From Acetivibrio cellulolyticus CD2 (GTDB lineage: Bacteria > Bacillota > Clostridia > Acetivibrionales > Acetivibrionaceae), in the NCBI RefSeq assembly GCF_000179595.2, contig NZ_JH556657.1, positions 416,946-480,945 on the forward strand: a stretch of 64,000 nt of DNA. The letters run 5' to 3'. The stretch's first letter is position 1. Each line of letters begins with the position of its first letter. Positions 1,358 through 19,333 of this stretch are shown here, one piece after another. The position numbers and the translations under genes were made by a program. The notes beneath the pieces were generated by a model. It saw only the letters and a list, made by a program, of their open reading frames with translations. It ran no database searches and was not told where the DNA came from.

Positions 1358-3319
1358 ATGAGAATGTTTCATTGGAAAGCCTTTATCGAAAATAACATTA
1401 ACTATATTCAGCATGAATTACCTGATGACAGAATTGAATGGGTTGATAAAATAACAGGTACCAAGTTCTATTTAACACATCAAGAATATAATGAATATCT
1501 TTCACTAATTCAAAAAAAAGTTGACTTAAAAAATGCAGATATGATTGTTGAATATCTTAATACAGAAGGAGTTCAAAATTTACTTCCGTATTATGATGGA
1601 AGAACTGAGCCGAAGATTACTTTGAGAGATGCGGCATGGCTTTTTGTTTTATTTTCTTATCTCTACAATGGAAATGGCAATGCCGATATTTACTCCTTAA
1701 GAGAAGAAAGTTACAAAGCATTCTTTGGTGGTACCAGGGATAAGTTCCCTGAAGCATGGAAAGCACTTGAAATTGTAACACAATGTAGTGACTGCCTTGA
1801 TAAATCGGTTTATATAAAAATATTAAAGGGTGGTCCATATAAAATAAAAAAATATTATCTTGAAAATAATGATTTGAAAGATATTAGAGGAGCCAGTACA
1901 CTTCTAACCTATGTTGGAGAGGAAAAGATACCTGAGATAATTGGAAAACGTTTTATAGAGGAATGCCTTATTTATTCCGGTGGTGGGAATGTATTTGCTG
2001 TTTTACCAAGTTGGGCTGACGAAAACATTTATCTTGAACTTGAAAGAACTTTTCATCAGTATACAATGGGTGCTCAAAATGCATTTTATTTAAGTGAAGA
2101 AATAAAACTGGAAGATTTACTTATTAATTATAAAAGCACAATGTATGAGATTGAAGAAAGGCTTTTAGAAAGGGAAAAACATAAAATTTATATTACAATT
2201 CGCCCCAAAAGTGAGTTTTTTAATGACGGATTTTTTTATGTTGAAGATGAAAAGATTGAATTTGAAAATGTTAGTATATCACCAGGAGGAAAATGCAAAC
2301 TTTGTGCAGTGAGAGAGGCAGAGTACTTAATAAAATCATTTGAAGGCATAACTGCTTGTGGAAGCTGTATGCACAAGCATCTTACTGGTGCGATAATGAA
2401 AAAGGGGATTTTAAAGAAATATAAACAGATTACAGGTAAAGATATAAAATGGGCTCAAAAATCCATTGATGATTTAAAGGATAATAAAGGTTACGTATCG
2501 GTAATATATGCCGATGGTAACAATATGGGGGCTATTGTCAGGGATATTGAAAATTTGGCAGATATGATGTTCTTTAGTAGAAGGACTTCTCAGATTGCAC
2601 AAAAAGCATTATTTAAATCGTTATATGAATTCTACCCAGATAAATTTGAGGTTGTTGCTATTGGAGGGGACGATATTTTTGTAATAGTTCCTGGAAAAGA
2701 TTCTATCGAATTTACGGCGAGAATGATCCAAACTTTCAACAATGAGTTTAAAAACTTATCGTCAGAGGAAAATGAGCAGAGGTATTCAGCAACCCTATCT
2801 GCTGGTATTTGTATTGGAAAATACAAGACTCCAATTCGATTAATGGTGGAGCAAGCTGAAGAAAAAATGAAGAATGCCAAAAATCTTGTAAGAACTGATA
2901 AAGCCTGCTGTAACGGAAGTCTTGATTTTGTGGTCATTAACGATATAGGACAGACAGCAAATCAGGATATGTCTGACAAGGGCAATTGTGGCGAAGTAAA
3001 ATATTCCTTACTACCATATAACTTGGAGCGGGCTATGGATATGGTTAATCTAGTAAAGGAACTAAAAAATAAAAGAGTTAAAAGTAGTTTGAATGGCCTT
3101 TTACGGGCATTTGAGAAAGCCGAGTCAAAGTTGGAGATGCAGCTCTTTTATAGCTACAATCAAGTAAGAAACAAAAACAATATCAATAATAATATAAAGT
3201 CAATAACTGGACTTAAGTTTGAAAATGGCATATTAGTATCTTCTTTAGAAGATGGCAGATCATTTTCTCCATGGAGGGATATTCTTGAAATGTGGGACTT
3301 TTGTGGGGGTGAAAATTAA
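1358..3319 (+). CDS. cas10: Cas10, type III CRISPR large subunit (HD-less, GGDD intact)
   Basis: 653 residues from ATG 1358, chosen because GAGGGGG lies 7 bases upstream; a TTG at 1343 is possible but has no ribosome site. Palm 1 carries DIRGAS near residue 175 and YADGNNMG around D386. A CxxC pair of treble-clef type is at C313/C316 and C334/C337. The GGDD cyclase motif is at 436-439 in palm 2. No N-terminal HD nuclease motif is visible, so single-strand DNase activity is not expected. The family binds crRNA-guided Cas7/Cas5 subunits and makes cyclic oligoadenylate when target RNA is bound. Its stop overlaps the next start by one base. Subtype assignment (III-D-like) rests on the neighbours. 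Confidence 0.9.
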   Translation: MRMFHWKAFIENNINYIQHELPDDRIEWVDKITGTKFYLTHQEYNEYLSLIQKKVDLKNADMIVEYLNTEGVQNLLPYYDGRTEPKITLRDAAWLFVLFSYLYNGNGNADIYSLREESYKAFFGGTRDKFPEAWKALEIVTQCSDCLDKSVYIKILKGGPYKIKKYYLENNDLKDIRGASTLLTYVGEEKIPEIIGKRFIEECLIYSGGGNVFAVLPSWADENIYLELERTFHQYTMGAQNAFYLSEEIKLEDLLINYKSTMYEIEERLLEREKHKIYITIRPKSEFFNDGFFYVEDEKIEFENVSISPGGKCKLCAVREAEYLIKSFEGITACGSCMHKHLTGAIMKKGILKKYKQITGKDIKWAQKSIDDLKDNKGYVSVIYADGNNMGAIVRDIENLADMMFFSRRTSQIAQKALFKSLYEFYPDKFEVVAIGGDDIFVIVPGKDSIEFTARMIQTFNNEFKNLSSEENEQRYSATLSAGICIGKYKTPIRLMVEQAEEKMKNAKNLVRTDKACCNGSLDFVVINDIGQTANQDMSDKGNCGEVKYSLLPYNLERAMDMVNLVKELKNKRVKSSLNGLLRAFEKAESKLEMQLFYSYNQVRNKNNINNNIKSITGLKFENGILVSSLEDGRSFSPWRDILEMWDFCGGEN

Positions 3320-3882
3320 TGACGAATCCAATAAGCAAGATTTACAAAGTAAGGTTTAAACTTAGATCACCTTTACATATAAGCTCAGGTAATAACGGTG
3401 ATGGAATAACGAAGTCTGCCAAGGTAGGGATTGAACCGTTCATTCCTGCATCAACTATAAAAGGTAAAATAAGAAGCAATTTTAAAAGCTTATTGCCGGA
3501 TAAGTGCTGTAACAATGAACAATCTGGCACTAGCTGGTGTGAATGCCCTGTGTGTTCGATATTTGGAAAAGCTGGATATCAACCATCCAGAATATATATA
3601 CAAAATTTAAAGTATAACGGAGAGAAGGATCTGGATACTTTCGGTATCAGGTCTACTGTGGCAATAGATAGGTTCAGAAGAGTTGCCAGGGATGGTTCTC
3701 TGGCATTTACCGAAGTTATTGATAATGGATCATTTGAAGGTGATTTGGAAGTTTACTATTCTGGAGATTCTATCAATTATGAAAAACAGTTAATAGCTGC
3801 TATTAAGATGATTGAATCAATTGGAAAAGGTAAAAGCCGAGGATGGGGCTTTGTTGATGTGGAGGTGACGATTCTTGAGTAA
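3319..3882 (+). CDS. Short Cas7-like RAMP protein (Csm3/Csm5 group)
   Basis: 187 residues, starting at an ATG that overlaps the cas10 stop. The N-terminal RAMP strand is followed by FIPASTIKGKIR (41-52), the IPGSSLKG-type loop of Cas7 proteins. A CxCxxC cluster (C74, C76, C79) before IFGK is the usual zinc site, and a glycine-rich GKGKSRGWGF segment closes the fold. The loop that carries the target-RNA-cleaving Asp in Csm3 reads TKSAKVGIEP here, so no catalytic Asp is seen. It probably forms a non-cutting backbone or capping subunit. A glycine-rich C-terminal end is complete despite the short length. Confidence 0.8.
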   Translation: MTNPISKIYKVRFKLRSPLHISSGNNGDGITKSAKVGIEPFIPASTIKGKIRSNFKSLLPDKCCNNEQSGTSWCECPVCSIFGKAGYQPSRIYIQNLKYNGEKDLDTFGIRSTVAIDRFRRVARDGSLAFTEVIDNGSFEGDLEVYYSGDSINYEKQLIAAIKMIESIGKGKSRGWGFVDVEVTILE

Positions 3883-5047
3883 AGTTAGTATCAGGCTTGA
3901 AGAGCCCCTTATGGTTGGTGGAAAGAGATTAGCCGACAATGTGCTTGAATCTCTTGATTATATACCTGGAAATGTAATGAGAGCGGCTTTGGCGAAGTAC
4001 ATACTTTTAAGCTGTCCTCTGTACGATCACAGAAAGCCAGATGAGCTAGGCAGATATAACTATGTTTATGTCAGGGATGAAACCAGTTGCAGTAGATGCA
4101 AATTCAATAACGCCTGCAGGGAATTTTCAAACATTCGTATTTCATTTTTTTATCCAGAAGGCTATGATATTATTCCATTAACTTCAAAGAAGTGTAAAAC
4201 ATATATGGATCATGGTTTTAAAGATATTCTTACAGGAGTTGAAACATCAGAATGTGAAGAATGCATGAAAATAAACCGACAGGGTTCCGGAACAGCTTTT
4301 TTAGGGAGGATGGAGTTTGCAAATGGGTTCAGACATGGAAAAGAAAAGTGTACTCCTGGGAGATATAGTTTTACGCGGACTTCTCTTGATGAATATACAT
4401 TGACTGCACTTGATGCCAGTCTTCACTCAATCAATGTTGTTGAAGGTGGAATTATTTATGAAGGTGAAATAAAAGGTTTCGAAAGCTTAAATTTAAATCC
4501 TGGTAAAATGCTCTATGTTGGCAAGTATACATCAATTGGATTTGGACATGTGAAGATTATGGGTGTCAAGGACAAACCGGAAAGAAAAAATCTTATTGAA
4601 TTACTAGGAGAGTTTAATAAAAATATAAGAACAAAATTACCTCGAGATGCAGAAAAGTCGTACATACCCATACTTTTTAGGAGTGATGCAAAGCTTGGAA
4701 TTGAAGAGCTTTGTACAGATACACCATTAAGCGACAGGGAATACAAGCAAATATGGGAACGACTGGTGTTAGGTGATAATCCTTGTGGATTCCAGATTGA
4801 GCAGGTTTTTTCTGAACAAGATATTTATAAGGGGTACGATACATCAAAAGAATTGGAAAAATGGGAAAGAAAACCTTGTGTTTTTACTAAGAAAGGCACG
4901 TCCGTTTTGATGTCTACTAAAAAAAGGCTGGAAGATATAGTAGAAACTCTTATTTCGATGGAAACGAAAGGAATAGGGAAGGATACCTATGATGGCTTTG
5001 GTGAGATAGAAATATGCAACGAATTGCATGTTAAGGGGGGGATATAG
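3875..5047 (+). CDS. Csx10-like RAMP protein (Cas5-group subunit)
   Basis: 390 residues. The TTG start at 3875 is supported by GGAGGTG 7 bases upstream, and it overlaps the previous gene by 8 bases. The N-terminus (RLEEPLMVGG, then YIPGNVMRAALAKYIL) follows the Csx10 pattern of a RAMP strand plus an IPG..RGALA loop. Two cysteine clusters follow (C72/C75/C81 and the CEEC pair near residue 128), each probably binding zinc. A second RAMP half ends in a KGIGKDTYDGFGEI glycine-rich loop. Csx10 is the Cas5-type subunit of type III-D, holding the crRNA 5' tag at the foot of the complex. The Csx10 name is by resemblance, not a search result. Confidence 0.7.
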   Translation: MSKVSIRLEEPLMVGGKRLADNVLESLDYIPGNVMRAALAKYILLSCPLYDHRKPDELGRYNYVYVRDETSCSRCKFNNACREFSNIRISFFYPEGYDIIPLTSKKCKTYMDHGFKDILTGVETSECEECMKINRQGSGTAFLGRMEFANGFRHGKEKCTPGRYSFTRTSLDEYTLTALDASLHSINVVEGGIIYEGEIKGFESLNLNPGKMLYVGKYTSIGFGHVKIMGVKDKPERKNLIELLGEFNKNIRTKLPRDAEKSYIPILFRSDAKLGIEELCTDTPLSDREYKQIWERLVLGDNPCGFQIEQVFSEQDIYKGYDTSKELEKWERKPCVFTKKGTSVLMSTKKRLEDIVETLISMETKGIGKDTYDGFGEIEICNELHVKGGI

Positions 5048-5518
5048 ATGGATAAGAAGACTCTGATTCAATATGTAGAAGAACTGGCATCAAAAACGGA
5101 TATAAAAGATTGCATTTCAGATAATGACGGAAAAGATAGTCTTGGAAAGTCACAATTTAGGTCTATCGCAGAATTGTGTGCCAAAGCAGATTTCTATGAG
5201 GAAATAAAGCTTTTAATAGAGTATAAGGAATCTAAAGGAAACGGATGGGATAAAAACATTGCAAAACCAGGCATGGCATTGAGTCTAGACCCAGAAGGAT
5301 ATTATTTCTGGGATAAAAACATTGCAAAATCAGGCTTCATAACTTGTGGCGAAGTAATCGTTAGATACATGGAAAACATAAAGAAGCAGTCCTCGGAAGT
5401 GGATGTTTTGAAAAACCTTGAACTCTTTTTCGGATATATGCACTGGAAAGCTAATGTACTATGTAAAGAGAATAAGAAGGGCAACGAAAAGAGTAAAGGA
5501 AAGGGGGAGTATAGGTAA
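5048..5518 (+). CDS. Small helical type III subunit, Csm2/Cas11-like, with an internal duplication
   Basis: 156 residues, mostly predicted helix, starting directly after the Csx10-like stop with GGGGGG upstream. The stretch SQFRSIAELCAKADFYEEI resembles the SQLR helix of Csm2/Cas11 small subunits, which line the belly of type III complexes. Residues WDKNIAKPG and WDKNIAKSG are 21 residues apart. At DNA level, about 27 bases are repeated almost exactly 63 bases apart (5246 and 5309), so an in-frame tandem duplication has occurred. The C-terminus is Lys/Glu-rich. It could instead be a Csx19-type accessory; the Cas11 role is inferred. Confidence 0.55.
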   Translation: MDKKTLIQYVEELASKTDIKDCISDNDGKDSLGKSQFRSIAELCAKADFYEEIKLLIEYKESKGNGWDKNIAKPGMALSLDPEGYYFWDKNIAKSGFITCGEVIVRYMENIKKQSSEVDVLKNLELFFGYMHWKANVLCKENKKGNEKSKGKGEYR

Positions 5519-6282
5519 TGCTTTTTGATGTTTTTAAATCAAGAGAAGTGATAAAGGGTAATATAGTTGCGTTGAAGCCTATTCATATCGGAGTAGGTGA
5601 GGATAGTATTGACCCTGTACAGGTTGATTCACCTGTCCTGAAGGACTCAAGGGGGCTTCCTGTAATACCCGGTTCTTCTCTTAAAGGTGTGCTGAGAAGC
5701 AGACTTGAGGCTATACTTGCAAACCCGGCTTTTGAAGGCAAATGGAGAAGCTGCAATATACTGGATGACAGTAGAAACTGTTATGAGAAGATTTCAAAGG
5801 ATGGTAATGTAAAAGCTATAAAGGAAGAGATAAGAAAATCCGGTGACAACACACAGAAAAGGTACCGGGACTATGCAGAAAAAATATATTCAATGAGCTG
5901 TGACGTGTGTAAATTATTTGGAAACGGTCATATTGCGGCGAAGTTACAAATAAAGGACATGCTTTGCGTGGATACGGAAGTGAACTATGAACGGCGTGAT
6001 GGCGTGGGTATGGACCGGGATACCGGTACAGCCAGTAGGGGTGCAAAGTACGGATTTCAGATTGTTCCAGCAGGTATAAGGTTTGAGTTTTATATGATTG
6101 CAGAAAACCTTGAAGATGAACAGAAAAAATTAGTAGAACTTTTAATCAAAATACTTGAAGAAGGTGACATATCTATAGGAGGAATGACTTCAAGAGGACT
6201 TGGACAGATAAAATTAATAGATACTGACAGAAAAAATATAGACGCGGGTACAATTTTTAAGCATTATAACTTAGAATGCTAG
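5518..6282 (+). CDS. csm3: Csm3-like Cas7 RAMP with candidate catalytic aspartate
   Basis: 254 residues; its start overlaps the previous stop (TAATG). The N-terminus reads LKPIHIGVGEDSIDP, then VDSPVLKD and LPVIPGSSLKGVLRS. D37 in VDSPV sits where Csm3 carries the aspartate that cuts bound target RNA every six nucleotides. A C128/C131 CxxCKLFGNG zinc motif, MDRDTGTASRGA and a GGMTSRGLGQI glycine loop complete the Cas7 signature. Among the four Cas7-like proteins in this operon it is the only one with an aspartate in this place, so it is the likely slicer subunit. The gene symbol is by family resemblance. Confidence 0.85.
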   Translation: MLFDVFKSREVIKGNIVALKPIHIGVGEDSIDPVQVDSPVLKDSRGLPVIPGSSLKGVLRSRLEAILANPAFEGKWRSCNILDDSRNCYEKISKDGNVKAIKEEIRKSGDNTQKRYRDYAEKIYSMSCDVCKLFGNGHIAAKLQIKDMLCVDTEVNYERRDGVGMDRDTGTASRGAKYGFQIVPAGIRFEFYMIAENLEDEQKKLVELLIKILEEGDISIGGMTSRGLGQIKLIDTDRKNIDAGTIFKHYNLEC

Positions 6283-6292
6283 GAGGTATACA

Positions 6293-7099
6293 ATGTTTAG
6301 GGAACTGGTAAATGAGTGTAAAATCAAATTTGTATTAAAAGCCGAAGGACCTGTCTTGATAAGATCTGGAGAGAATATGGATCTTGACCCTATGCTTCCT
6401 AGTGTTAAGTTTGTAAGAAGTTTTCATAATAATGATTATAACGTTGTCATACCTGGAAGCAGTATAAAAGGTGTATTCCGGAGCAGAGTGGAAAAGCTTC
6501 TGAACGGTAGTTGTAAAATTGTCTCGAAAAATTATTACGACAGTTGTTCATCCAAAATTGGTAATTTAGATAGAAACAATAAATATACAATGAAGGTCGA
6601 GGATAAATACAAAGAAAGTTGTAACGCATGCAAGCTGTTCGGAAACATGTCCATTAAGAGCAGGATCGAATTTAAGGATGCCTACCCGGAAAAAGATACT
6701 GTCAAACTTGCAAATAGATATAATGTAGGAATAGACAGGGTTACAGGAGCAGCAAAGGATAGTGCTTTGTTTGAACCTGAGGTTTTGGAGGCAGGTACAT
6801 TTGAAGCAGAAATAATTATTAAGAATTTTTTCCTCTGGCAGTTAAAAGTTTTAATTCAGGTATTTGAGGACATTAATGAAGGATATGTAACATTTGGTGG
6901 AGTAACTTCAAGAGGTTTTGGAAGGATGTCCGCTAACAGTATAACTTTTTCTGTTAGGGAATACGGGGCTGCCGAACCAGGGCAATTCTATAAAGAAAAG
7001 ATAATGAGCAAAGACGAAATAGAGGAGAAGTTAAAAAGTGTTACATTTTCTGAAAATGAAACAGGAAAGGTGAAGTTTAACAATGAGCATATTTTATGA
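6293..7099 (+). CDS. Cas7-like RAMP protein, second copy
   Basis: 268 residues with AGGAGG about 7 bases before the ATG. It shares the layout of its upstream neighbour: GPVLIRSGENMDLDP, VVIPGSSIKGVFRSRVEKLL, CNACKLFGNM, GIDRVTGAA and GGVTSRGFGRM. These mark it as a paralogue arising by duplication. The catalytic position (VDSPV in the upstream copy) reads MLPSVKF, so an Asp is not obvious; D30 and D32 are close but appear out of register. A backbone subunit of the crRNA complex is the most likely role. It overlaps the next gene by 17 bases, which implies translational coupling. Confidence 0.8.
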   Translation: MFRELVNECKIKFVLKAEGPVLIRSGENMDLDPMLPSVKFVRSFHNNDYNVVIPGSSIKGVFRSRVEKLLNGSCKIVSKNYYDSCSSKIGNLDRNNKYTMKVEDKYKESCNACKLFGNMSIKSRIEFKDAYPEKDTVKLANRYNVGIDRVTGAAKDSALFEPEVLEAGTFEAEIIIKNFFLWQLKVLIQVFEDINEGYVTFGGVTSRGFGRMSANSITFSVREYGAAEPGQFYKEKIMSKDEIEEKLKSVTFSENETGKVKFNNEHIL

Positions 7100-7934
7100 T
7101 TTTGTAGATATACTTGGGCCTTCACCATTTGATACAGAAAAAACTGAAAGAGAATATACTGGTAAGCTAGTTCTTGAGATGGAAACCCTTTCACCGGTGT
7201 TTGTCGGGTCCGGTTTTGAAAAGTCGGAGAATGAAATTTTATATAAAAGTTTTATTCGTTTTTTAGATAAACCAGTTATTCCCGGCAGCTCGATAAAAGG
7301 TATGCTCAGAACTATATGCCAGGCTGTCTCGTACAGTTGTATAGATGTGGGTAAAAGAATAAAAAAAGATTTACCGTATAAATCCGATAACTGCAATTGT
7401 ATTGTATGCAATACCTTCGGGAAAATGAAACTTAGAAGTCGAGTGAACATTGGTGATTTTGTACTTGAAAAAGGAGAGCAGGACATAATAAGGATACCTA
7501 TTCAAATGAATCCACATATAGAAAATAAGGATATCTATTACTCTCAAGATGGAAAGCTGAGAGGTATCAAGTTTTACAGACATGGAGATTACAGAATACT
7601 TGAAAATACTAAAATAGCTGTTGAGACCGTAACCAAAGGCGGAGTATTTACAGGAGAGATAATATTTCATGGCCTTCTAAAACAGCAGCTTGAGCTTTTA
7701 TGTTATGCACTTGGGTTGGATGAAAGTTTTCAGCCAAAGGTAGGAGGCAATAAATCAGGCTTTTTCGGAAGCTGCGTTTTTAAAGTCAAGAGGGCTGTAT
7801 TGGACAGTGAAGATTTTGATCCTTCAATGTATGCAAAGAGTTATGGAGCTAGTGATACAAGGATAGAACAAAATAAGAAAAAGCTTTGTGAAATACTTAG
7901 CTTTGATAATAGGATATTATCATTATGGGGTTGA
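7083..7934 (+). CDS. Cas7-like RAMP protein, third copy
   Basis: 283 residues. Motifs in order: LVLEMETLSPVFVGSG, KPVIPGSSIKGMLRTI, CNCIVCNTFGKMKLRSR (zinc motif and FGK), ETVTKGGVFTGEI and VGGNKSGFFGSC (glycine-rich loop). No aspartate stands at the Csm3 catalytic site (ILYKSFIRFL). The longer C-terminus and position near the end of the RAMP series fit a Csm5-like cap at the crRNA 3' side, but this is inference. The start codon lies inside the preceding gene, with no strong ribosome site of its own. Confidence 0.75.
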   Translation: MSIFYDFVDILGPSPFDTEKTEREYTGKLVLEMETLSPVFVGSGFEKSENEILYKSFIRFLDKPVIPGSSIKGMLRTICQAVSYSCIDVGKRIKKDLPYKSDNCNCIVCNTFGKMKLRSRVNIGDFVLEKGEQDIIRIPIQMNPHIENKDIYYSQDGKLRGIKFYRHGDYRILENTKIAVETVTKGGVFTGEIIFHGLLKQQLELLCYALGLDESFQPKVGGNKSGFFGSCVFKVKRAVLDSEDFDPSMYAKSYGASDTRIEQNKKKLCEILSFDNRILSLWG

Positions 7935-7938
7935 TAAG

Positions 7939-8460
7939 ATGAATAAAACAAGGGGACTTCTTGAAACTGCATTAAGGTTTTCCGAATTTGGTGATCAGGG
8001 AACAATAAGAAAAGTTGCTAATATAGCCCAAAGATTAAGCGGCAATGAGGATACCAGTGAGTTTGTAAAACTGATGATACTCTACCTGGATAATTTAGAT
8101 ATTTTGGGCGGTGGAAATAACGATAAGACAGCGGCTAAGGCAAGATTTAAGGAATTTGTTAGCCAGTGGCTGAAAATAAAACAGATAAATGGGGAGATTA
8201 AATGGGAAAATGCTGAATTAAGGGAATTAGACCCGGAAGAACTGGCTTATGTCCTTGGGTGGGCAGGAAGAATAGCTAGAAAGTATAGCAAAAAAGTATC
8301 ATCTAATACTGCTTATTCTTGTGGGTTGAAAGCAGAGATAAAGAAGAGACCGGAAGATGATACAACAAGGTACACTAATAAGGCTGAGGAAGAACCTGCT
8401 AAAGATTATGATATGGATAAAATGCTTAATTTATTGCAGAAGAAATTTCAAAAAAATTAG
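7939..8460 (+). CDS. CRISPR type III-associated helical protein of unknown function
   Basis: 173 residues from ATG 7939 with GGGG 8 bases upstream. A GTG at 7888 inside the previous gene would add 17 residues but lacks a ribosome site. I do not recognise the family with confidence. The first 120 residues look all-helical (ETALRFSEFGDQGTIRK, FKEFVSQWLKI, ELAYVLGWAGRIARKYS). The charged tail is low in complexity and ends in DMDKMLNLLQKKF, a possible short docking helix. Helical content and position between RAMP genes and effector suggest a small-subunit-like (Cas11/Csm2-type) or regulator role. There are no catalytic motifs. Confidence 0.5.
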   Translation: MNKTRGLLETALRFSEFGDQGTIRKVANIAQRLSGNEDTSEFVKLMILYLDNLDILGGGNNDKTAAKARFKEFVSQWLKIKQINGEIKWENAELRELDPEELAYVLGWAGRIARKYSKKVSSNTAYSCGLKAEIKKRPEDDTTRYTNKAEEEPAKDYDMDKMLNLLQKKFQKN

Positions 8461-8488: not shown

Positions 8489-9004
8489 ATGGATATATGG
8501 AAAAACATTGGTAATATTGCTTCGATTGCATCTATTATTTCTGTAATACCGGTTACCTTGTCATTATTCATTCTTGTAACCGAAAAAAGGAATAGGCAAA
8601 AAAACTTAGAGAATATAAGAAGATCCAACCCAAGGGAAAAATCATGCGTAGTGATTATTGATGTTGGTGATAAAGATGTATCAATGCGTGAAAGCGTTGA
8701 ATCTTGGATGTATGATCAGCCTGAATTCAAGAGCTATCCGAAGGAGAACATATTTCATGTTTCCTACATAAAGATAGTAACTGAAAGTGATATAGATGAC
8801 CTGCTAAAAAAAATAAGGGCAGTTCAAAAAAAGGTTATGTCTAAAGGCACACGGCATATTCATCTTTTCGCTAGAGGACCGCTTGCCTTATCTGCTATGC
8901 TTGGAGTAGAATTTAAGAATTGCTGTCCTGTTATATTTTATCAAAGGGATACTACAACGAATAAGGACTATATAAATTGGGGCCCGATTCAAAGGCCAAA
9001 TTGA
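8489..9004 (+). CDS. Membrane-anchored SAVED/CARF-like protein, candidate cyclic-oligonucleotide effector
   Basis: 171 residues with GGGGG about 10 bases before the ATG. Residues 8-31 form one hydrophobic membrane span, followed by a basic stop (EKRNRQKN), placing the rest in the cytoplasm. The soluble part starts with a strand CVVIIDVGD and has a helix DDLLKKIRAVQKKV. It then reads HIHLFARGPLALSAMLG and CCPVIFYQ, which resembles the ligand-binding half of SAVED domains (a CARF-like Rossmann fold). At about 120 residues it is only one half of a usual SAVED domain, so it would need to dimerise. No nuclease, protease or TIR motif is present. Its position, with a GGDD-intact Cas10 upstream, suggests it senses cyclic oligoadenylate and acts at the membrane. 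Confidence 0.6.
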   Translation: MDIWKNIGNIASIASIISVIPVTLSLFILVTEKRNRQKNLENIRRSNPREKSCVVIIDVGDKDVSMRESVESWMYDQPEFKSYPKENIFHVSYIKIVTESDIDDLLKKIRAVQKKVMSKGTRHIHLFARGPLALSAMLGVEFKNCCPVIFYQRDTTTNKDYINWGPIQRPN

Positions 9005-9017
9005 AAGGTGATTAAAG

Positions 9018-9971
9018 GTGCTATCTAAAGAAGAAATAAAGCTGAATAAGCTTGAATACATAAAATTAAAAGTAACTCTGAAATGTATGGAGGACTGTAT
9101 TTTGCCCGCTTATTTAGGCTCTACCCTGAGGGGAGCCATAGGCAGGGAGTTAAAAAAGCTTTCTTGTATGTCTCCTAAACAGGCCGATTGCAGGAAATGT
9201 GCAAACACACATCTATGCTGCTACACAAAAGTGTTTTCAAGTGTTACAAATGAACACGATGGGTGGGGAAAAGCGACAAATGCCCTTCCAAACCCTTTCA
9301 TAATTGAGCCGCCTATGGATTGCAAAAGAGATTATTATGCTGGGGAAAATCTATGCTTCAATCTGATTTTTATAGGAGATGGTATTTCATATTTACCGTA
9401 TTTTATTTTTGCAGTAAATGGGATGGCTGTTAATGGCCTTGGAGTCAGTAGGAAAAAGTTTGCACTTGAAGGGGTTGAAAGGTTTGATACTGGTGAAAGC
9501 ATTTTTATAAACGGAGTATTTGATCATACTGCTGTGAAGTTAACAAAATGGGAAGACAAAACATATGAAGGTAAGGTGGATGAGGTATCTGTGAAATTCC
9601 TTACTCCATTTAGGTTCAGACTTGATGGAAAGATGTATGATAGTCTAAACTTTGAAATATTTTTAAGAAATATTTTAAGAAGGATGTCCATGCTTGCTTC
9701 CTGTTACTGCGGTGGTGAATGGCAAATTAACTATAAGGATTTGTTGGAAAAGTCAAGAACTATTGCAGTTAAGAGGTTAAATACAGAATGGCACGATTGG
9801 GAAAGGTATTCAAGCCGTATTCAAGGGAAAGTTAAAATGGGTGGAATTGTAGGCGAAGTAGTATTTAAGGGAAAGTTATCACCTTTTTTGCCTTATATAA
9901 ATATTGGGAGTGCACTACATATAGGTAAGGGATGCACTATGGGGCTTGGAAAATATGAGTACAAGACATAG
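9018..9971 (+). CDS. cas6: Cas6 crRNA-processing endoribonuclease
   Basis: 317 residues from GTG 9018, with AAAGGTG ahead. The N-terminal RAMP half reads LPAYLGSTLRGAIG and has a four-cysteine CRKC..CC cluster near residue 60. The C-terminal half reads WERYSSRIQGKVKMGGIVG, then LPYINIGSALHIGKGCTMGLGKYEY, the glycine-rich signature of long Cas6 proteins. It cuts the array transcript within each repeat. The gene directly precedes the leader and array 1. Its last 50 codons are repeated in degraded form at 12,263-12,402. Confidence 0.9.
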   Translation: MLSKEEIKLNKLEYIKLKVTLKCMEDCILPAYLGSTLRGAIGRELKKLSCMSPKQADCRKCANTHLCCYTKVFSSVTNEHDGWGKATNALPNPFIIEPPMDCKRDYYAGENLCFNLIFIGDGISYLPYFIFAVNGMAVNGLGVSRKKFALEGVERFDTGESIFINGVFDHTAVKLTKWEDKTYEGKVDEVSVKFLTPFRFRLDGKMYDSLNFEIFLRNILRRMSMLASCYCGGEWQINYKDLLEKSRTIAVKRLNTEWHDWERYSSRIQGKVKMGGIVGEVVFKGKLSPFLPYINIGSALHIGKGCTMGLGKYEYKT

Positions 9972-10167
9972 AATAGTAAAAGTATAGTCTGCTAATTTTC
10001 CAACCTTGATTTTAGTATATATTGCTATGGACCTTGAAAATAGAATATTGTACAGATCCTTATAGTAAAATTATAATAGTATGATGTTGGCTGGAATAAA
10101 GTCTTGAAATGCCTACAAAAAAAGACTTCCAGGTAATGTTGATTTTTGAAATGCAGTTTTGATATTG
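9972..10167 (+). promoter_or_regulatory. Leader of CRISPR array 1
   Basis: An AT-rich 196-base stretch between the cas6 stop and the first repeat. It contains a hairpin (AAGTCTT/AAGACTT, about 10,100-10,131) that is kept in the leader of array 2. Repeats next to it are perfect and those at the far end are decayed, so this is the leader side. Confidence 0.75.
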
Positions 10168-11376
10168 GTTATGACCTAACATATAAGGAATTGAAACCCG
10201 TTTGCATTGTTAACAAATTCTGAATTTGTTCTTTTGTTATGACCTAACATATAAGGAATTGAAACCCTATTGCATTACTTGGCTTATTTGGTAGCTTTGT
10301 CTGTTATGACCTAACATATAAGGAATTGAAACTTATTTTTATTTAAACATAATATAAATGATGTTCGAGTTATGACCTAACATATAAGGAATTGAAACTC
10401 AGTCAAATACAGCTTATATCTTCGAACATCATTTGTTATGACCTAACATATAAGGAATTGAAACGCACTTTCCATTAATGGTCTTATGTATTTTGTATCA
10501 AAGTTATGACCTAACATATAAGGAATTGAAACACGACTATCCCACAGGTGGTAATTCCACAATAGGAGTTATGACCTAACATATAAGGAATTGAAACGTT
10601 AATGATAATTCAAATTGATAATAATTTAAAGAGTTATGACCTAACATATAAGGAATTGAAACATTGCATTTTGGAGCTCTATGCTCATAATTCCCCACTG
10701 TTATGACCTAACATATAAGGAATTGAAACCAAGGAATCTTTACCTAATAGGTATTCCTTGCGAGTTATGACCTAACATATAAGGAATTGAAACCTGTCTG
10801 CTTCTTGTCTGTTCTTGATAGGGTCATCGTTATGACCTAACATATAAGGAATTGAAACTCTAAAACAGTACAACGATATCCAGACCAATCATCCTGTTAT
10901 GACCTAACATATAAGGAATTGAAACTTCATGCAAAGCTCAATGTTCCAGGTATAGTAATTGTTATGACCTAACATATAAGGAATTGAAACTATTGCTATT
11001 TTGGTTATTACATCAGCTTTATTAAAGTTATGACCTAACATATAAGGAATTGAAACATTCTAGATTTATATTTTGACCAAAGCTCTATTGGGTTATGACC
11101 TAACATATAAGGAATTGAAACTTGAAGTTTAGGCCTTCTGTAACTGTATCTTCCAGAGTTATGACCTAACGTATAAGGAATTTAAACTATACAGATTGTG
11201 TAACAGTCTGATAAGGTTCTCCGTTATGACCTAAAATATAAGGAATTATAACATCCAAAGAAGTACTGTTATAGAAGTCTTTAAGAGGTATCCTAATATA
11301 GGGAATTGAAGCATAACATTAACTTTCTTATATGCCTTAATAAAACATTATGACCTATCATATAAGGAACTGAAGT
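10168..11376 (+). CRISPR. CRISPR array 1, 19 repeats (15 perfect)
   Basis: The 30-base repeat begins GTTATGACCTAAC and ends GGAATTGAAAC. Copies start at 10168, 10236, 10303, 10369, 10435, 10503, 10568, 10633, 10700, 10764, 10829, 10896, 10961, 11027 and 11092 (all identical). Four mutated copies follow at 11158, 11223, about 11286 and about 11347. Spacers are 34-38 bases. The GAAAC 3' end is typical of type III-associated repeats handled by Cas6. Decay at the far end is expected of the oldest units and fixes the polarity. Spacers 3 and 4 share 13 bases in opposite orientation, and spacers 1 and 9 are palindromic (see findings). Confidence 0.97.
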
Positions 11377-11419
11377 AACTTAAAAATTATCAAATATTTT
11401 TAGAAGAGAGTGATTTAGT

Positions 11420-12151
11420 GTGGATAAGATTGATTTAAAAAAACACTTTTTAGGATTGCAGAAACAAATGACTTCAAGGTTAATGGCTAATAGGGAGTCT
11501 ATCATTCATCCAGGAACAAAAGGAGATGCTTCAGAGTTAAATTGGATTGAATGGTTAAAAGCATATTTGCCAAAGAGATATAATGTGGGAAAAGCTTTTA
11601 TAATAGACTGTAAAGGGAATATTAGTGATCAGATTGATGTCGTTATATACGATCAACAATATTCACCTTTTGTATTTAACCAAGATGGTGCTATCTATAT
11701 TCCTGCTGAAAGTGTTTATGCAATATTCGAAGTAAAACAGGAACTTAATAAAGACTATATTAAGTATGCTGGAGAAAAAGCAGAAAGTGTTAGATCATTA
11801 CATAGAACATCGACAAATATATATCATGCAGGAGGTAAATATGAGCCTAAACAGCCATTGAAAATATTATCTGGCATACTTACATTGACAAGTTCATGGA
11901 ATCCGCCATTAGGGGATAGCTTTGAAAGTGTAATAATGGGTTTGGAACCTAGTCAGTCGCTTGATATTGGGTGCGCCCTTAAAGATGGTGCGTTTAAGGT
12001 AATATATGATAAGAGTATATCAATTCAAAAGAGCAACAACGAAGAATCTTTAATTTTTTTCTTTTTAAATCTTTTGATGGAATTACAAAAGGTAGGTACA
12101 ACTCCAGCTATTGATATAATGTGTTATGCTGAATCACTAGATTCAATATAA
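11420..12151 (+). CDS. DUF6602-like protein, putative PD-(D/E)XK nuclease
   Basis: 243 residues; GTG start with AGAAGAGAG upstream. The middle reads GDASELNWIEWLKAYLP, then ISDQIDVVIYDQQYSPFVF and IPAESVYAIFEVKQEL. This is the E...D...ExK order of the restriction-endonuclease-like fold as seen in DUF6602: E34 in the first helix, D71 in QIDVVIYD and E103/K105 in FEVK. Such proteins are often found in defence islands; the activity is not established. The gene lies between the decayed end of array 1 and the duplicated cas6 tail of array 2, so it probably arrived with that rearrangement. The C-terminus (FFFLNLLMELQKVGTTPAIDI) matches the family's closing helix. Confidence 0.65.
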   Translation: MDKIDLKKHFLGLQKQMTSRLMANRESIIHPGTKGDASELNWIEWLKAYLPKRYNVGKAFIIDCKGNISDQIDVVIYDQQYSPFVFNQDGAIYIPAESVYAIFEVKQELNKDYIKYAGEKAESVRSLHRTSTNIYHAGGKYEPKQPLKILSGILTLTSSWNPPLGDSFESVIMGLEPSQSLDIGCALKDGAFKVIYDKSISIQKSNNEESLIFFFLNLLMELQKVGTTPAIDIMCYAESLDSI

Positions 12152-12262: not shown

Positions 12263-12402
12263 GTTCAAGCAGAAATAAAAGGTGCGGAATTATGGGCGAA
12301 GTAGTATTTAAGGATTTTTTGACGTATATAGATATTCGAAGTATACTATATATAGTTAAGGGATACTCTATGGGGCTTGGAAAATATGAGTACAAGACAT
12401 AG
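12263..12402 (+). pseudogene. Duplicated 3' fragment of cas6
   Basis: From TTCAAG near 12,263 to the TAG at 12,400-12,402, the DNA matches the last about 150 bases of cas6 (9820-9971). TATGGGGCTTGGAAAATATG and the stop are identical. A deletion of about 12 bases and several substitutions have removed the coding sense. It has no start and no function as a gene, and it marks the left edge of a duplicated block that carries the array 2 leader. Confidence 0.85.
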
Positions 12403-12597
12403 AATAATATAAGTATAGTCTGGTAAATTTCCAACCTTAATTTTAGTATATATGGCTATGGACCTTGAAAATAGAATATTGTACAGTTTCTTATAGTAAA
12501 ATTGGAATAGGATGACATTGGTTGGAAAAAAGTCTTGAAATGTCTAGAAAAAAGACTTCCAGATAATATTGACTTTTGAAATGTAGTTTTGATATTG
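12403..12597 (+). promoter_or_regulatory. Leader of CRISPR array 2, diverged copy of the array 1 leader
   Basis: Collinear with 9972-10167 throughout, including GCTATGGACCTTGAAAATAG and the AAGTCTT/AAGACTT hairpin. Scattered substitutions suggest an old duplication. It ends at the first array 2 repeat in exactly the same register. Confidence 0.8.
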
Positions 12598-13191
12598 GTT
12601 GTGACCTAACAAATAAGGAATTGAAACATCCAAAGTGTTCACATTTACAGATGATTTTGACAGTTGTGACCTAACAAATAAGGAATTGAAACCACGGAAA
12701 ATACATTTTATGGTTACTATAATCTAAAGTTGTGACCTAACAAATAAGGAATTGAAACTGAATCTTATTCCAGATATAACGAATAGTTAGTAGTGTTGTG
12801 ACCTAACAAATAAGGAATTGAAACTCCATTCTTGATAATACATCTTCTGCTTCTCCCCGGTTGTGACCTAACAAATAAGGAATTGAAACACGTATTCTGG
12901 GTTATTTGTCATAAGGTAATTATTGTTGTGACCTAACAAATAAGGAATTGAAACTTCGCAAGTTGAAAGGCTTTTATTGCGCTTATTACGGTTGTGACCT
13001 AACAAATAAGGAATTGAAACATAGTGCCACCATTACCATACGAGCCTATAACCCCGTTGTGACCTAACAAATAAGGAATTGAAACTATACACCAAGAATT
13101 AAAGCCATAAGCGGCGCCTCCTATAGTTGTGACCTAACAAATAAGGAATTGAAACATTTTGCTTTCTTTTTGCTGCCTGTTGTGACCTAAC
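12598..13191 (+). CRISPR. CRISPR array 2, 9 full repeats plus a truncated one
   Basis: The 30-base repeat begins GTTGTGACCTAACAAATAAG and ends GAATTGAAAC. It differs from the array 1 repeat at two positions (A to G at 4, T to A at 15). Copies start at 12598, 12663, 12729, 12795, 12860, 12925, 12991, 13056 and 13126, all identical. A tenth copy at 13179 stops after GTTGTGACCTAAC, where IS21-derived sequence begins. The last spacer is only 23 bases (13156-13178); the others are 35-40. All full copies share the two substitutions, so the variant was fixed before the array grew or spread by recombination. The old end was lost to the insertion sequence. Confidence 0.97.
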
Positions 13192-14123: not shown

Positions 14124-15299
14124 ATGAACACATACTACGTTGATCTACATGCCCATATTGGACGATCTTCAAAAGGTAAAGAAATAAAAAAGGCTACAGC
14201 AAATAATTTAACTTTTGAGAATATTGTATATGAATCATATAGAAAGGGTATAGACATTATAGGAGTCGTTGACTGCATAAATCCCTACGTTTTAGAGGAT
14301 ATTGATGACTTGATTTATAGAGCTGAACTAGTTGAAAAGGATGAGGGGGGCATGGCGTACAGAGGAAAACAGACCATTATACTAGGCGCTGAGATTGAAA
14401 CGCATGAGAAACATGGTTGTAGCGCACACTCTTTATGTTTTTTTTCGACATTAAAGCAAATAAAGGAATTTTCAAATGAGATGAGCGAGCATGTAAAAAA
14501 TTTAAGGGTTTCTAGTTTAATGAGTAGGTTAACTGGACAGGATCTATTCAACATTGTAGACCAACTAGAAGGTATATATATCCCGGCACATGCTTTTACA
14601 CCACATAAGGGCTTCTATGGCAACTGTTGTGATTCGTTGCATGATATATTCAATGCTCAATCTTTCGAAAAAATGCCGGCTATAGAACTTGGGATTAGTG
14701 CAGATTCTATGATGGCAAGCCAGCTAAGTGAATTAGATGGAAAATCATTTATAAGTAATTCTGATGCCCACTCCTTGTCGAAGATTGGAAGGGAATATAA
14801 TATATTTGAAATGGAAAACTCAACATTTGAGGAGCTTATTAAAGCTTTAAGGAGTAAAAACGGAAGAAGAGTAAAAGCAAATTACGGACTAGACCCTAAG
14901 CTGGGGAAATATCATAGGTCATACTGTCAAACTTGTGATGTAGTTATTGAGGGTAAGCCTCCTGTGATTAAATGTCCTATTTCAGATAAGCATCAAGTAG
15001 TAATAGGAGTGAAAGACCGACTCGAAATGATAAAGGATCGTTATAATCCTAAAATGGATGGTAGAGCGATGTATAACTATCAGATACCATTAGAGTTTAT
15101 ACCTAAGGTCGGACCAAAGACTATTGACAAGCTAGTGAACCATTTCGGAAGTGAAATGAAAGTGCTTCACGATGCAAGTTATGATGATCTTTCAAAAGTA
15201 GTGAATGATGAGATAGCAAAAAATATTGTACTTGGAAGAGAGGGTAAACTTGGTATTGAAGTTGGGGGCGGAGGAATTTACGGAAGGATAGAACGTTGA
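14124..15299 (+). CDS. Endonuclease Q-like PHP-domain protein
   Basis: 391 residues with AAAGGTGG 10 bases before the ATG. The PHP metal sites are visible: DLHAHIG (7-13), an AEIETHE histidine, the H in IPAHAFTPHKG, and SNSDAHS near 220. A cysteine-rich zinc motif follows (YCQTCD, then IKCP), and then a helix-hairpin-helix-like GPKTIDKLVNHFG. This is the EndoQ order, an enzyme that nicks DNA 5' of deaminated bases and abasic sites. Many database entries still call it TIGR00375. A second, truncated copy sits beyond the IS66 element. EndoQ assignment is by domain order. Confidence 0.75.
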   Translation: MNTYYVDLHAHIGRSSKGKEIKKATANNLTFENIVYESYRKGIDIIGVVDCINPYVLEDIDDLIYRAELVEKDEGGMAYRGKQTIILGAEIETHEKHGCSAHSLCFFSTLKQIKEFSNEMSEHVKNLRVSSLMSRLTGQDLFNIVDQLEGIYIPAHAFTPHKGFYGNCCDSLHDIFNAQSFEKMPAIELGISADSMMASQLSELDGKSFISNSDAHSLSKIGREYNIFEMENSTFEELIKALRSKNGRRVKANYGLDPKLGKYHRSYCQTCDVVIEGKPPVIKCPISDKHQVVIGVKDRLEMIKDRYNPKMDGRAMYNYQIPLEFIPKVGPKTIDKLVNHFGSEMKVLHDASYDDLSKVVNDEIAKNIVLGREGKLGIEVGGGGIYGRIER

Positions 15300-15413: not shown

Positions 15414-17039
15414 TCATTTTTTGAAGCACTTTTTATGTTTATGATTCAGCCTGCATTCTTCCGGTAAATCCTTTGACCAAGGCAGGTACTTGTCCAGAAG
15501 TTCTGGGTGGTTTTTAAAATCTGTATTAGGCATTGCTTCAAGGATATATTTTAGATACTCATACACATCCAAAATATTTGCTTTAGCAGATTCCACCAAT
15601 GTATAAAGGATCGCATTAGCAGTTGCTCCCTTTGGAGTGTCAGCAAAAAGCCAGGCTCTTCTTGCTACGGCATATGGTTTGATATTTGCCTCGCAAAGAT
15701 TGTTGGAGATGGGAAGCCTTCCGTCTTCTAGAAATGTTTCAAGATACTTTTTTTGATTCTTAGCATAATTTAGAGCTTTTGTCAGGTTCTCATTTGTAGT
15801 AGAAATTGCAGAGGTCTCTTCAACCCATGACCAAAAGGCATCAAGAATGGCACGTGACGCCTCCTGACGCTTCTCTTTCTTTTCGTCATATGACAGTTCC
15901 TTTATCTCATCTTCCAGTTTGAAGAGAAGATTGATGAATTCCCTTCCTTCAGCTCCTTTGGAACCCGAGATCTCTTTTCCTTTATTGTCCAGCGGAATAC
16001 TTTCTATGAAATAGCGTCGACAATGAGCCCAACAAAGATTTCTTTTAATGTTCTCCGCTTTCTCATAAGCACTATACGCATCCGTGGTTAGATATCCATG
16101 AAACCCTTGTAATAGTTGCTTTGCAACATCACCGCTTCGGCTTCTGGAATAGTGGAAGAAAGCTGCCTTGATCTCTTCACAAGCTGCACTTCGCATGACC
16201 CACATGAAAGAATCACTGCTAGCTTGTTTGCCTTCTTCCTTATTACACTGGATTCTTGTTTCATCCATGTGAAGGACTTCGCATTTTAAAAGCTCCTCAT
16301 GAATCCGGTTGTAAATCGGAGCCAGCCATTCTTCACTACACCGAATCGTCCAGTTTGCCATATTAGATCTTGGTAGCACCATACCTATACGGTACCAATC
16401 GTTCTCTTGACGGTTGAAAGGAATCCCCATTGCAAACTTCTGATACATGACTTGTGCCACAAGGGATGCAGTTGCTATGGAGTGTGGCAGAACTGAAGTT
16501 GGAACCGCAGCTTTCTGGAAATGGTCTTTGGGATTTTCGCTACCTTCATTTCCACAGTTGGTACACTTAGCAACTTCCTGGAGAACCTGTACTACTTTCA
16601 GTTTTGACGGAATAAATTCCACTTCTGTGCGTACAAGCTTTTTACCAATGACTTTCAGTTCTGCTCCGCACTCGGAACAGTTTTCTTCCGGAGGAATGAT
16701 ATATTCCTCCACCTCTTTCGGAATATTTACAAGCATTTCAACTCTGACACCAGGCTGTCTGGCAGTTCTTTGGTGGCTTGGAACGGTTATTTTTTTCTGT
16801 TCCTTAAATAATTCCGCTGCCAGTTCCTGCGTTGTTTCAAACAGATTTATTTGTTCGCCTGTCTGTCTGGTAATCTCAGAAGGGCTACCAAATAGTTTCT
16901 TGCGAGCGTGCAGGAGAGCCTGAATCATGTTCTCAAGCTGGATATTTTGTTTTTGAATGATCTTATCTTTTGCTTCAAGTTCCTGCTTTTGTTTTTCAAC
17001 TAAAGCCCGAAGCATTTCCAGTTCTTCATGTTCTGTCAA
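15414..17039 (-). CDS. tnpC: IS66 family transposase TnpC
   Basis: 541 residues from a TTG at 17,039 with AAAAGGACG upstream. The N-terminal coiled coil is followed by KKLFGSPSE, then the IS66 zinc finger (CSECGAEL and CTNCG). The DDE core has D in HMDETRI, D in YLTTDAYSAYE and E in NNLCEANIKPY. It is the DNA-cutting transposase of the element. The 3' end of the gene runs into the IS left-end hairpin. Confidence 0.95.
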   Translation of the reverse strand: MTEHEELEMLRALVEKQKQELEAKDKIIQKQNIQLENMIQALLHARKKLFGSPSEITRQTGEQINLFETTQELAAELFKEQKKITVPSHQRTARQPGVRVEMLVNIPKEVEEYIIPPEENCSECGAELKVIGKKLVRTEVEFIPSKLKVVQVLQEVAKCTNCGNEGSENPKDHFQKAAVPTSVLPHSIATASLVAQVMYQKFAMGIPFNRQENDWYRIGMVLPRSNMANWTIRCSEEWLAPIYNRIHEELLKCEVLHMDETRIQCNKEEGKQASSDSFMWVMRSAACEEIKAAFFHYSRSRSGDVAKQLLQGFHGYLTTDAYSAYEKAENIKRNLCWAHCRRYFIESIPLDNKGKEISGSKGAEGREFINLLFKLEDEIKELSYDEKKEKRQEASRAILDAFWSWVEETSAISTTNENLTKALNYAKNQKKYLETFLEDGRLPISNNLCEANIKPYAVARRAWLFADTPKGATANAILYTLVESAKANILDVYEYLKYILEAMPNTDFKNHPELLDKYLPWSKDLPEECRLNHKHKKCFKK

Positions 17040-17178
17040 TGGTATACACGTCCTTTTTTATCTGGTTTAAGTATACCACTTTTTAATGCCTTTTTCTATA
17101 TTTTAGGAGATATTAATGGGCAAAAAAATGCTGATTTTATGCGGGTTTTTAGCCGTTTTTTCGGCATATTCACCAACC

Positions 17179-17553
17179 CTAATAACAGGTTTTTTCGGCA
17201 CTCATTTCAACAGAATAATGTGCCTTTTTCTGTTCTATATTAAGTCCCTGAAAGAGCCATTCCATCTGCTGTAATGTAATCTCTTTTACTTCCGACGGGC
17301 TCTTGGGCCATTGAAACTTCATTCCTTCCAAAAGCTTCTTGCTGGCAAGGATAAACCCATTTTTATCATATCTCAAAACTTTAATAGCTGTTTTTCTTTT
17401 ATTGCAGAAGATGAAAGCGCAGCTGTCTGAAAATGGATCGAGTTTAAACTGTAGATTCACAATCGCCACCAATCCATCAATCTGCTTCCGAAAATCTGTG
17501 GAATTACAGGCTATGTAGATATGTTCAGCTCCCTGGGTAAATCCGCCTAACAT
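17179..17553 (-). CDS. tnpB: IS66 accessory protein TnpB
   Basis: 124 residues. The start GAEHIYIACNSTDFRKQIDG and the middle CAFIFCNKRKTAIKVLRYDKNG are diagnostic of the IS66 Orf2 family, which is needed for transposition but has no known catalytic motif. The start overlaps the end of tnpA by 7 bases, so the two are likely translated together. The 140-base gap before tnpC carries no recognised feature. Confidence 0.93.
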   Translation of the reverse strand: MLGGFTQGAEHIYIACNSTDFRKQIDGLVAIVNLQFKLDPFSDSCAFIFCNKRKTAIKVLRYDKNGFILASKKLLEGMKFQWPKSPSEVKEITLQQMEWLFQGLNIEQKKAHYSVEMSAEKTCY

Positions 17554-17867
17554 ATTGAACGCAGTGCTTTTAACACTGTTGCTAGCAACTGAAGATCAGT
17601 CTTTTCGTGTATATCCAATACAAAATTGTCATACCGTATTGTGATGGAAGCAGAACCCGGATGCCTTATCACTTCTTCTGGAATTTTCATTTCTGCCCAG
17701 CATATATCTGTTGCTGAGTTCTTTTGCTTATTGAGTCTTGTAAGCCAATATTTGTAGGTTGACAATTTTATATTATTTTTTTCACACCATTGCCTAGCAG
17801 ATAAGCCACTGGCTTTACAATCTAAAATTGTCTGCTTCCATATTGTCTCGGATTTTCTTTGTGCCAT
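17547..17867 (-). CDS. tnpA: IS66 accessory protein TnpA
   Basis: 106 residues. The N-terminal helix-turn-helix reads WKQTILDCKASGLSARQWCEKNN, then STYKYWLTRL, typical of IS66 Orf1, a probable DNA-binding partner. The start MAQRKSET has AGGAGG a few bases upstream. It is first in the element's three-gene operon. Confidence 0.92.
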   Translation of the reverse strand: MAQRKSETIWKQTILDCKASGLSARQWCEKNNIKLSTYKYWLTRLNKQKNSATDICWAEMKIPEEVIRHPGSASITIRYDNFVLDIHEKTDLQLLATVLKALRSIC

Positions 17868-18277: not shown

Positions 18278-19333
18278 AAAGGTATAGAGATAATCGGGGT
18301 GGTTGATGCTATATCACCTTATGTTCTTGAGGATATAGACAATCTGATTGGAAAAGGTGAACTTCGTGAAATGAAAGAAGGTGGAATGGAATACAGGGAG
18401 GGACAGACCTTGTTGCTTGGGGCTGAGATAGAAACTCATGAAGAAAAAGGATGCAGCGCACATTCTCTATGTTTCTTTCCAACATTGAAGGCAATAAAAG
18501 ATTTTTCTCGGGATATGTGCAAGCATATAAAAAATATACATTTATGTTCTTCCATGAGCAGGCTTACAGGACAGGAATTGTTTGACATTGTAGAAGATCA
18601 TGGTGGCACTTTTATACCTGCTCATGCGTTTACTCCGCATAAGGGTTTTTATGGGAACTGTTGCGACAGCTTGCTTGAAATTTTCAAACCGGATTGTTTT
18701 GAAAAGATTCCTTCAATTGAGTTAGGGCTTAGTGCAGATTCAATGATGGCCAGCCAGCTTAGCGAGCTTGATGGAAAGTCATTCATCAGCAATTCAGATG
18801 CACATTCCCTTATTAAGATGGGCAGGGAGTATAATATTTTCAGCATGGAAGCTCCGAACTTTAGTGAGGTGTTGAAAGCACTAAAAGGTATTGATGGTAG
18901 AGGAGTAAAAGCAAACTACGGACTCGATCCCAAACTGGGAAAATATCATAGAACTTATTGCCTGGTCTGTGACCGTGTTATTGGGGGTGAGCCGCCAGTA
19001 TTAAAATGCCCGGTTTCTGAAAGACATAGCGTTGTAGTAGGAGTAAAGGACAGATTAGATATTATTAGGGATAGAAGCGAACCGGAGATGGGATTAAGAG
19101 CGCCGTATAACTATCAGATACCATTAGACTTCCTGCCGGGGGTTGGACCCAAAACTATAGACAAGCTGATAAAGCATTTCGGGAGTGAAATGAAGATTAT
19201 ACATGAGGCTACTTTTGAAGAGTTGGCTCATGTTGTTAAAGAAGAGGTTGCGACTAACATAATCCGTTCAAGGGAAGGGAAATTGAATATAGAGGTTGGT
19301 GGAGGGGGAGTTTATGGGAAAATTGAGAAATGA
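18278..19333 (+). pseudogene. Endonuclease Q-like protein, second copy, 5'-truncated
   Basis: From KGIEIIGVVDAISPYVLED to KLNIEVGGGGVYGKIE, the reading matches the protein at 14,124-15,299 closely. The first about 50 residues are missing, including the DLHAHIG metal-binding motif. Homology begins at 18,278; upstream bases do not match the first copy and no ATG is in frame. The first usable in-frame start is GTG 18,299, which would give 344 residues. A GTG at 18,274 with GGAGG ahead is out of frame. Without the first PHP motif it should be inactive. It could be translated as a partial protein, but a pseudogene is more likely. Confidence 0.7.

Follow-up and report, generated by a model that had tools for sequence, protein, structure and literature searches.

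Type III CRISPR systems that are served by the nuclease NucC are already known, namely in Vibrio metoecus and Serratia. As reported in PMC8682760, the HD-less type III-B complex of V. metoecus responds to target RNA by producing mainly cyclic triadenylate (cA3), which activates NucC with half-maximal activation at ∼94 pM cA3. The review PMC9704534 describes the assembly of NucC trimers into hexamers that cut dsDNA, and abortive infection in Serratia. According to figures given in PMC11229360, HD is rare in type III-D Cas10s (3%), and NucC is present in 35 of 1113 type III loci, where it is ‘broadly scattered’. NucC effectors are named in III-A2 in a 2025 classification (PMC12669027).

Here we describe a nucC gene that lies between two CRISPR arrays in the window, by which we mean the whole stretch of 64,000 nt of Acetivibrio cellulolyticus CD2 DNA that was analysed. 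We consider it quite probable that a CBASS NucC has been recruited, without its cyclase, as the abortive-infection effector of the type III system at this locus, and that it depends on Cas10. The features of the locus are as follows.

1343-3319, + strand: cas10 (Pfam PF22335, E = 3e-26), with a GGDD cyclase motif
3319-7934, + strand: type III backbone genes (Pfam RAMPs)
3319-3882, + strand: RAMP/Cas7-like gene (Pfam RAMP)
3875-5047, + strand: Csx10-like gene (NCBIfam TIGR02674, below cut-off, 63 of 177 bits)
5048-5518, + strand: small unknown gene in the cas operon
5518-6282, + strand: Csx7-like gene (NCBIfam TIGR02581, above cut-off)
6293-7099, + strand: Csx7-like gene (NCBIfam TIGR02581, above cut-off)
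7083-7934, + strand: RAMP gene (Pfam RAMP)
7888-8460, + strand: Csm2/Cas11-like small subunit (PADLOC PDLC01486, Csm2 of III-D, E = 7.5e-15)
8489-9004, + strand: TM-SAVED protein of 171 aa before cas6, a second putative cyclic-oligonucleotide effector
9018-9971, + strand: cas6 (Pfam PF10040, E = 2.1e-17; PADLOC, E = 8.7e-98)
9972-10167, + strand: leader of array 1, between cas6 and the first repeat, duplicated before array 2
10168-11377, + strand: CRISPR array 1, 18 copies in register, the last ones (at the nucC end) degenerate
11420-12151, + strand: nucC, GTG start, intact reading frame of 243 aa, predicted cA3-activated PD-(D/E)XK dsDNA endonuclease
12264-12597, + strand: duplicate of the cas6 3′ end and leader (12264-12600 is a copy of 9820-10170)
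12598-13190, + strand: CRISPR array 2, 9 copies, the last repeat truncated

The sequence-only reading had called the product of 11420-12151 a DUF6602-like PD-(D/E)XK protein. The reading frame carries the two motifs it gave, ISDQIDVVIYD and AIFEVKQ, exactly as described, and Pfam DUF6602 matches the protein (E = 7e-36). However, this label is too vague, since by its sequence the protein is NucC and not merely DUF6602-like. The PADLOC NucC model PDLC00745 matched with E = 9.6e-104 and covered residues 1-242 of 243, that is, the full length with the C-terminal half included; a second NucC model, PDLC01051, matched with E = 8.4e-63. A search of PDB sequences at E ≤ 0.01 returned NucC chains only (five of five distinct sequences), including 6p7o (E = 6.3e-61) and 6q1h, which is named NucC. 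An AlphaFold2 model of the monomer, made with 24 sequences, had a pLDDT of 92.4. All 14 matches of a fold search at E ≤ 0.001 were NucC, the best being cAAA-bound E. coli NucC (6p7p; TM 0.93, rmsd 2.0, 44% identity). Among 82 other NucCs, 59 columns reach at least 95% conservation, and the window protein keeps every one of them, far beyond chance, in a count that leaves out the DUF6602 proteins of loci L100-L102. D73, E104 and K106, which we take to be the catalytic residues of NucC, are present in register with E. coli NucC; the check proposed earlier, whether the fold keeps every catalytic residue, thus gave a positive answer. R53, Y81 and T227 are conserved as well, and the cA3-pocket residues of E. 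coli NucC are presumably R53, Y81 and T226. The window NucC is predicted to be a hexameric cA3-activated dsDNA endonuclease.

The same locus provides a Cas10 with a cyclase-competent GGDD motif (residue 441, window position 2663), the one Cas10 found in this genome. The earlier statement that the type III system otherwise lacks a DNase agrees with our finding that this Cas10 has no detectable HD: Pfam gave no HD family at E ≤ 1, and no HD dipeptide occurs anywhere in the protein. With GGDD present and HD not detected, a NucC effector at this locus fits the published pattern. The backbone looks like subtype III-D, judged by its Csx7-type RAMPs, the weak Csx10 match and the III-D models for Csm2 and Cas10d, which match in PADLOC. 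The only Cas1 found lies on the same contig, ∼312 kb past the end of the window. Within the small gene at 5048-5518, an internal 27-base repeat occurs in two copies 63 apart (5246-5335). Two similar proteins, presumably PHP-type (14124-15299 and 18299-19333), stand on either side of an element at 15414-17867 that we take to be IS66-like. The first ORFs of what we likewise assume to be an IS66-like element are also found just upstream of the window (L128:11157-11785), and therefore the type III locus may sit between IS66 copies.

The nucC gene is outside the cas operon, behind array 1. As had been noted from the letters, it is bounded by the decayed end of array 1 upstream and by the duplicated cas6 tail downstream. 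Its start is ∼40 bases past the last decayed repeat and its end ∼110 bases ahead of the copy of the cas6 3′ end and leader, which is 84.7% identical to the original over 352 columns and runs into array 2. Two positions distinguish the repeats of array 1 from those of array 2, which suggests that the duplication is not recent. Between 9000 and 14200 no terminator-like site was found, compared with 2.0 in shuffled sequences, and nucC showed no clear promoter of its own, with 34 promoter-like sites versus 26.6 (sd 5.5) in the shuffles. With no terminator-like site found and a promoter-like count close to that of the shuffles, the array leader may drive read-through transcription of nucC. A phage origin of the gene was rejected: phage records gave just two weak half-length matches, and none of 38 pattern stretches in viral contigs was confirmed as a nucC relative. 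Spacers gave three weak matches to phage records (E 0.07-0.9), which are not convincing.

Gene context was counted for the best 80 of 233 genome relatives of the window NucC. Among these 80, 78 were in CBASS, one was in a type III-B locus (L084) and one, L088, which begins at a contig end, was unassigned. A CD-NTase was located within 4 kb in 74 of the 80, and TRIP13 or HORMA only in four. Two of the CD-NTase loci, L045 and L072, have repeat runs several kb away. The closest five relatives (L010-L014, among which L011 and L012 have identical NucC) are 69-73% identical to the window protein and are two-gene CD-NTase/NucC loci. The sequence-only reading had proposed a search for co-occurrence with cas10 lacking HD, and had named scattered homologues without a CRISPR link as evidence against itself. 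The closest relatives come near to that adverse pattern; a longer form of NucC was type III-linked in seven of seven genomes. CBASS-linked homologues do not refute a type III role, because NucC answers to a signal of the same kind in CBASS and in type III systems. They do make nucC look like a recruit and not a dedicated CRISPR gene.

We also examined genomes related to that of A. cellulolyticus. In a sample of its order (58 genomes including its own), PDLC01051 matched six genomes at E ≤ 1e-10: its own, G001, G013, G038, G003 and G046. G001 (same genus), G013 (same family) and G038 each have cas10 and a long-form NucC within one stretch, so this arrangement beside type III genes occurs in three of the 57 other genomes. 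G003 and G046 have other DUF6602 proteins, and no cas10 was found in the stretches fetched. In a sample of the phylum (398 genomes including its own), five genomes matched at E ≤ 1e-30, its own and four of the 397 others, all four with long-form NucC beside type III genes. Short CBASS-type NucC was found in no other genome of the order sample at E ≤ 1e-10 or of the phylum sample at E ≤ 1e-30. The Cas10 profile is narrow: Cas10-like ORFs in L084 and L121 escaped it and were recognised by Cmr4/RAMP matches, GGDD/GGED and gene order.

A NucC tree was constructed from 50 rows: the window, L002, L003, L010-L031, every fourth of L032-L088 (including L084), eight long-form proteins drawn from seven genomes, and two chains from the PDB. 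The tree did not include the DUF6602 proteins of L100-L102, the row of L121 was trimmed by 60 N-terminal residues, and that of L097 contained only the part after an internal stop. In this tree, which has long branches and a bootstrap not fully settled (correlation 0.987), the window NucC grouped with L010-L014 (support 98/85), and the eight long-form NucCs beside type III genes formed their own branch (100/100). The type III NucCs of Vibrio, Serratia and Desulfovibrio also fell on the CBASS side, the placement of Serratia being unsure because of its long branch. A single clade of all 12 type III rows, a group named by context before the tree was seen, was rejected by the AU test (p = 3e-45). 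The label type III or CBASS changes at least four times on the tree, three of the changes being forced by well-supported branches, and such counts cannot separate gain from loss. The tree and the AU test reject the long-form type III lineage as the home of the window NucC and demonstrate its CBASS-clade ancestry.

The CD-NTase that adjoins a CBASS effector was not found beside the window nucC, and no CD-NTase occurs among the ORFs of the window. When the whole genome was searched, the partner CD-NTase of L012 gave nothing (best E = 4.9), SMODS gave no match above cut-off (best E = 0.08, with four stops inside) and the PADLOC cyclase model PDLC00803 gave no match at E ≤ 10; the assembly consists of 10 contigs, and these three probes could miss a diverged CD-NTase or one in a gap. 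A tblastn search of the window with 84 CD-NTase rows produced scattered chance-level matches (best E = 0.068) and no convincing remnant. A local CBASS at nucC was consequently rejected. Because a CD-NTase was not found in the genome, Cas10 is the only candidate source of activator found, and we infer from this failure that the window NucC is activated by a Cas10 signal. Since the nearest homologues are CBASS-linked, the link between NucC and Cas10 depends on where the gene lies and on the failure to find a CD-NTase.

An alternative explanation, which we regard as unlikely, is that nucC is an orphan CBASS effector whose cyclase is lost or elsewhere, with no working type III link and an accidental place between the arrays. 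The predominance of CBASS among its closest relatives and its own place outside the cas operon would suit such an orphan. However, the CD-NTase was found neither in the genome nor as a remnant near nucC, and the reading frame is intact with every conserved column kept, unlike the adjoining decayed cas6 copy and repeats. The sequence-only reading had left the choice between an independent gene and a nuclease partner of the type III system; the partner is better supported, with the amendment that the gene appears to be a recruit.

The activator itself has also to be considered, given the TM-SAVED protein of the operon. Its SAVED domain was matched by Pfam PF18145 (E = 1e-8) and by PADLOC (SAVED4--SAVED_TM, E = 1.6e-24; PDLC01160, E = 7.2e-26), and a single hydrophobic stretch spans approximately residues 10 to 31. 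It is the probable second cOA effector of the locus. Of the 397 other genomes of the phylum sample, only G322 has a relative at E ≤ 1e-5; it is 41% identical and lies close to two CRISPR arrays. TM-SAVED effectors are presented in the review PMC9704534 as bioinformatic predictions. Effectors answering different cOA signals seldom share one locus, as stated in PMC11229360, and for this reason the TM-SAVED protein is predicted to answer to cA3. The same source gives cyclic di-, tri- and tetranucleotides as ligands of SAVED proteins, and the co-effector could point to a ring size other than cA3. NucC would then work with Cas10 but be activated by another cyclic oligonucleotide, common to NucC and the TM-SAVED protein encoded in the cas operon. 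This we find improbable, as the ligand-bound NucC structures found are bound to cA3/cAAA, and R53, Y81 and T227, to which we attribute cA3-pocket roles, are conserved. An independent restriction-like DUF6602 DNase that needs no cyclic-nucleotide signal is highly improbable and was rejected, for although non-NucC proteins also carry DUF6602 (G003 and G046, L100-L102), these match the NucC models weakly and mostly over the N-terminal half, whereas the window protein matches NucC over its full length and has the cA3-bound form as its best fold match (TM 0.93).

We therefore return to a recruited NucC that depends on Cas10, which would act as follows. A crRNA-guided type III-D-like complex would bind a foreign transcript, and the Cas10 palm (GGDD) would then produce cyclic triadenylate. 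NucC trimers would bind cA3 and pair into active hexamers, and these would cut dsDNA with no sequence preference, so that the infected cell would presumably be killed or arrested. The gene would have been taken from a two-gene CBASS (CD-NTase and NucC) with its cyclase left behind, and NucC would now be expressed and activated by cA3 made by Cas10. The NucC here is of CBASS ancestry, whereas in the same genus (G001) a long-form NucC adjoins a cas10 related to that of the window (37% identity); this suggests an exchange of effectors. It is possible, although we believe it somewhat doubtful, that the captured NucC and the TM-SAVED protein share cA3 in a two-pronged abortive response directed at DNA and membrane and built of components of the CBASS type. 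Equally tentative is the other part of this shared-cA3 reading, that relatives of the type III-D-like locus use a different, long-form NucC. A probable DNase, NucC, can be named for this HD-less type III system, and the window NucC gives a clear example of effectors passing between CBASS and CRISPR.

The long-form NucCs (L096, L097, L099, L121-L124) resemble the window NucC in family and in their link to type III systems, and are present in the same genus (G001). They differ in length (∼300 aa), in their separate branch (100/100) and in insertions in the C-terminal half; four of the eight proteins have Q at the position of E104 (QCK), while the window NucC keeps E104. The Cas10s adjoining long-form NucC include three with AGDD and one with GGED in place of GGDD. 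In L123 the long-form nucC occurs in tandem, and in L097 (G013:C126:7082-8023) the long-form nucC beside cas10 has one in-frame stop codon. The NucC of a Desulfovibrio III-B locus (L084) is short and CBASS-type like that of the window, but is on another branch and belongs to another subtype. In this Desulfovibrio MAG, the short nucC (L084:8179-8901) is between the cmr operon and an array, a second array-adjacent placement. V. metoecus NucC (6uxf) also adjoins a type III system with an HD-less Cas10 and lies on the CBASS side of the tree. In contrast to the window, however, it is on a separate branch and its system is described in PMC11014256 as III-B, prophage-borne and a hybrid with a I-F Cas6. 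The two-gene CBASS NucCs (L010-L014) are like the window NucC in full-length protein, active site, size and nearest tree branch (98/85); in those loci nucC directly follows the CD-NTase, whereas in the window it stands between CRISPR arrays with no CD-NTase found.
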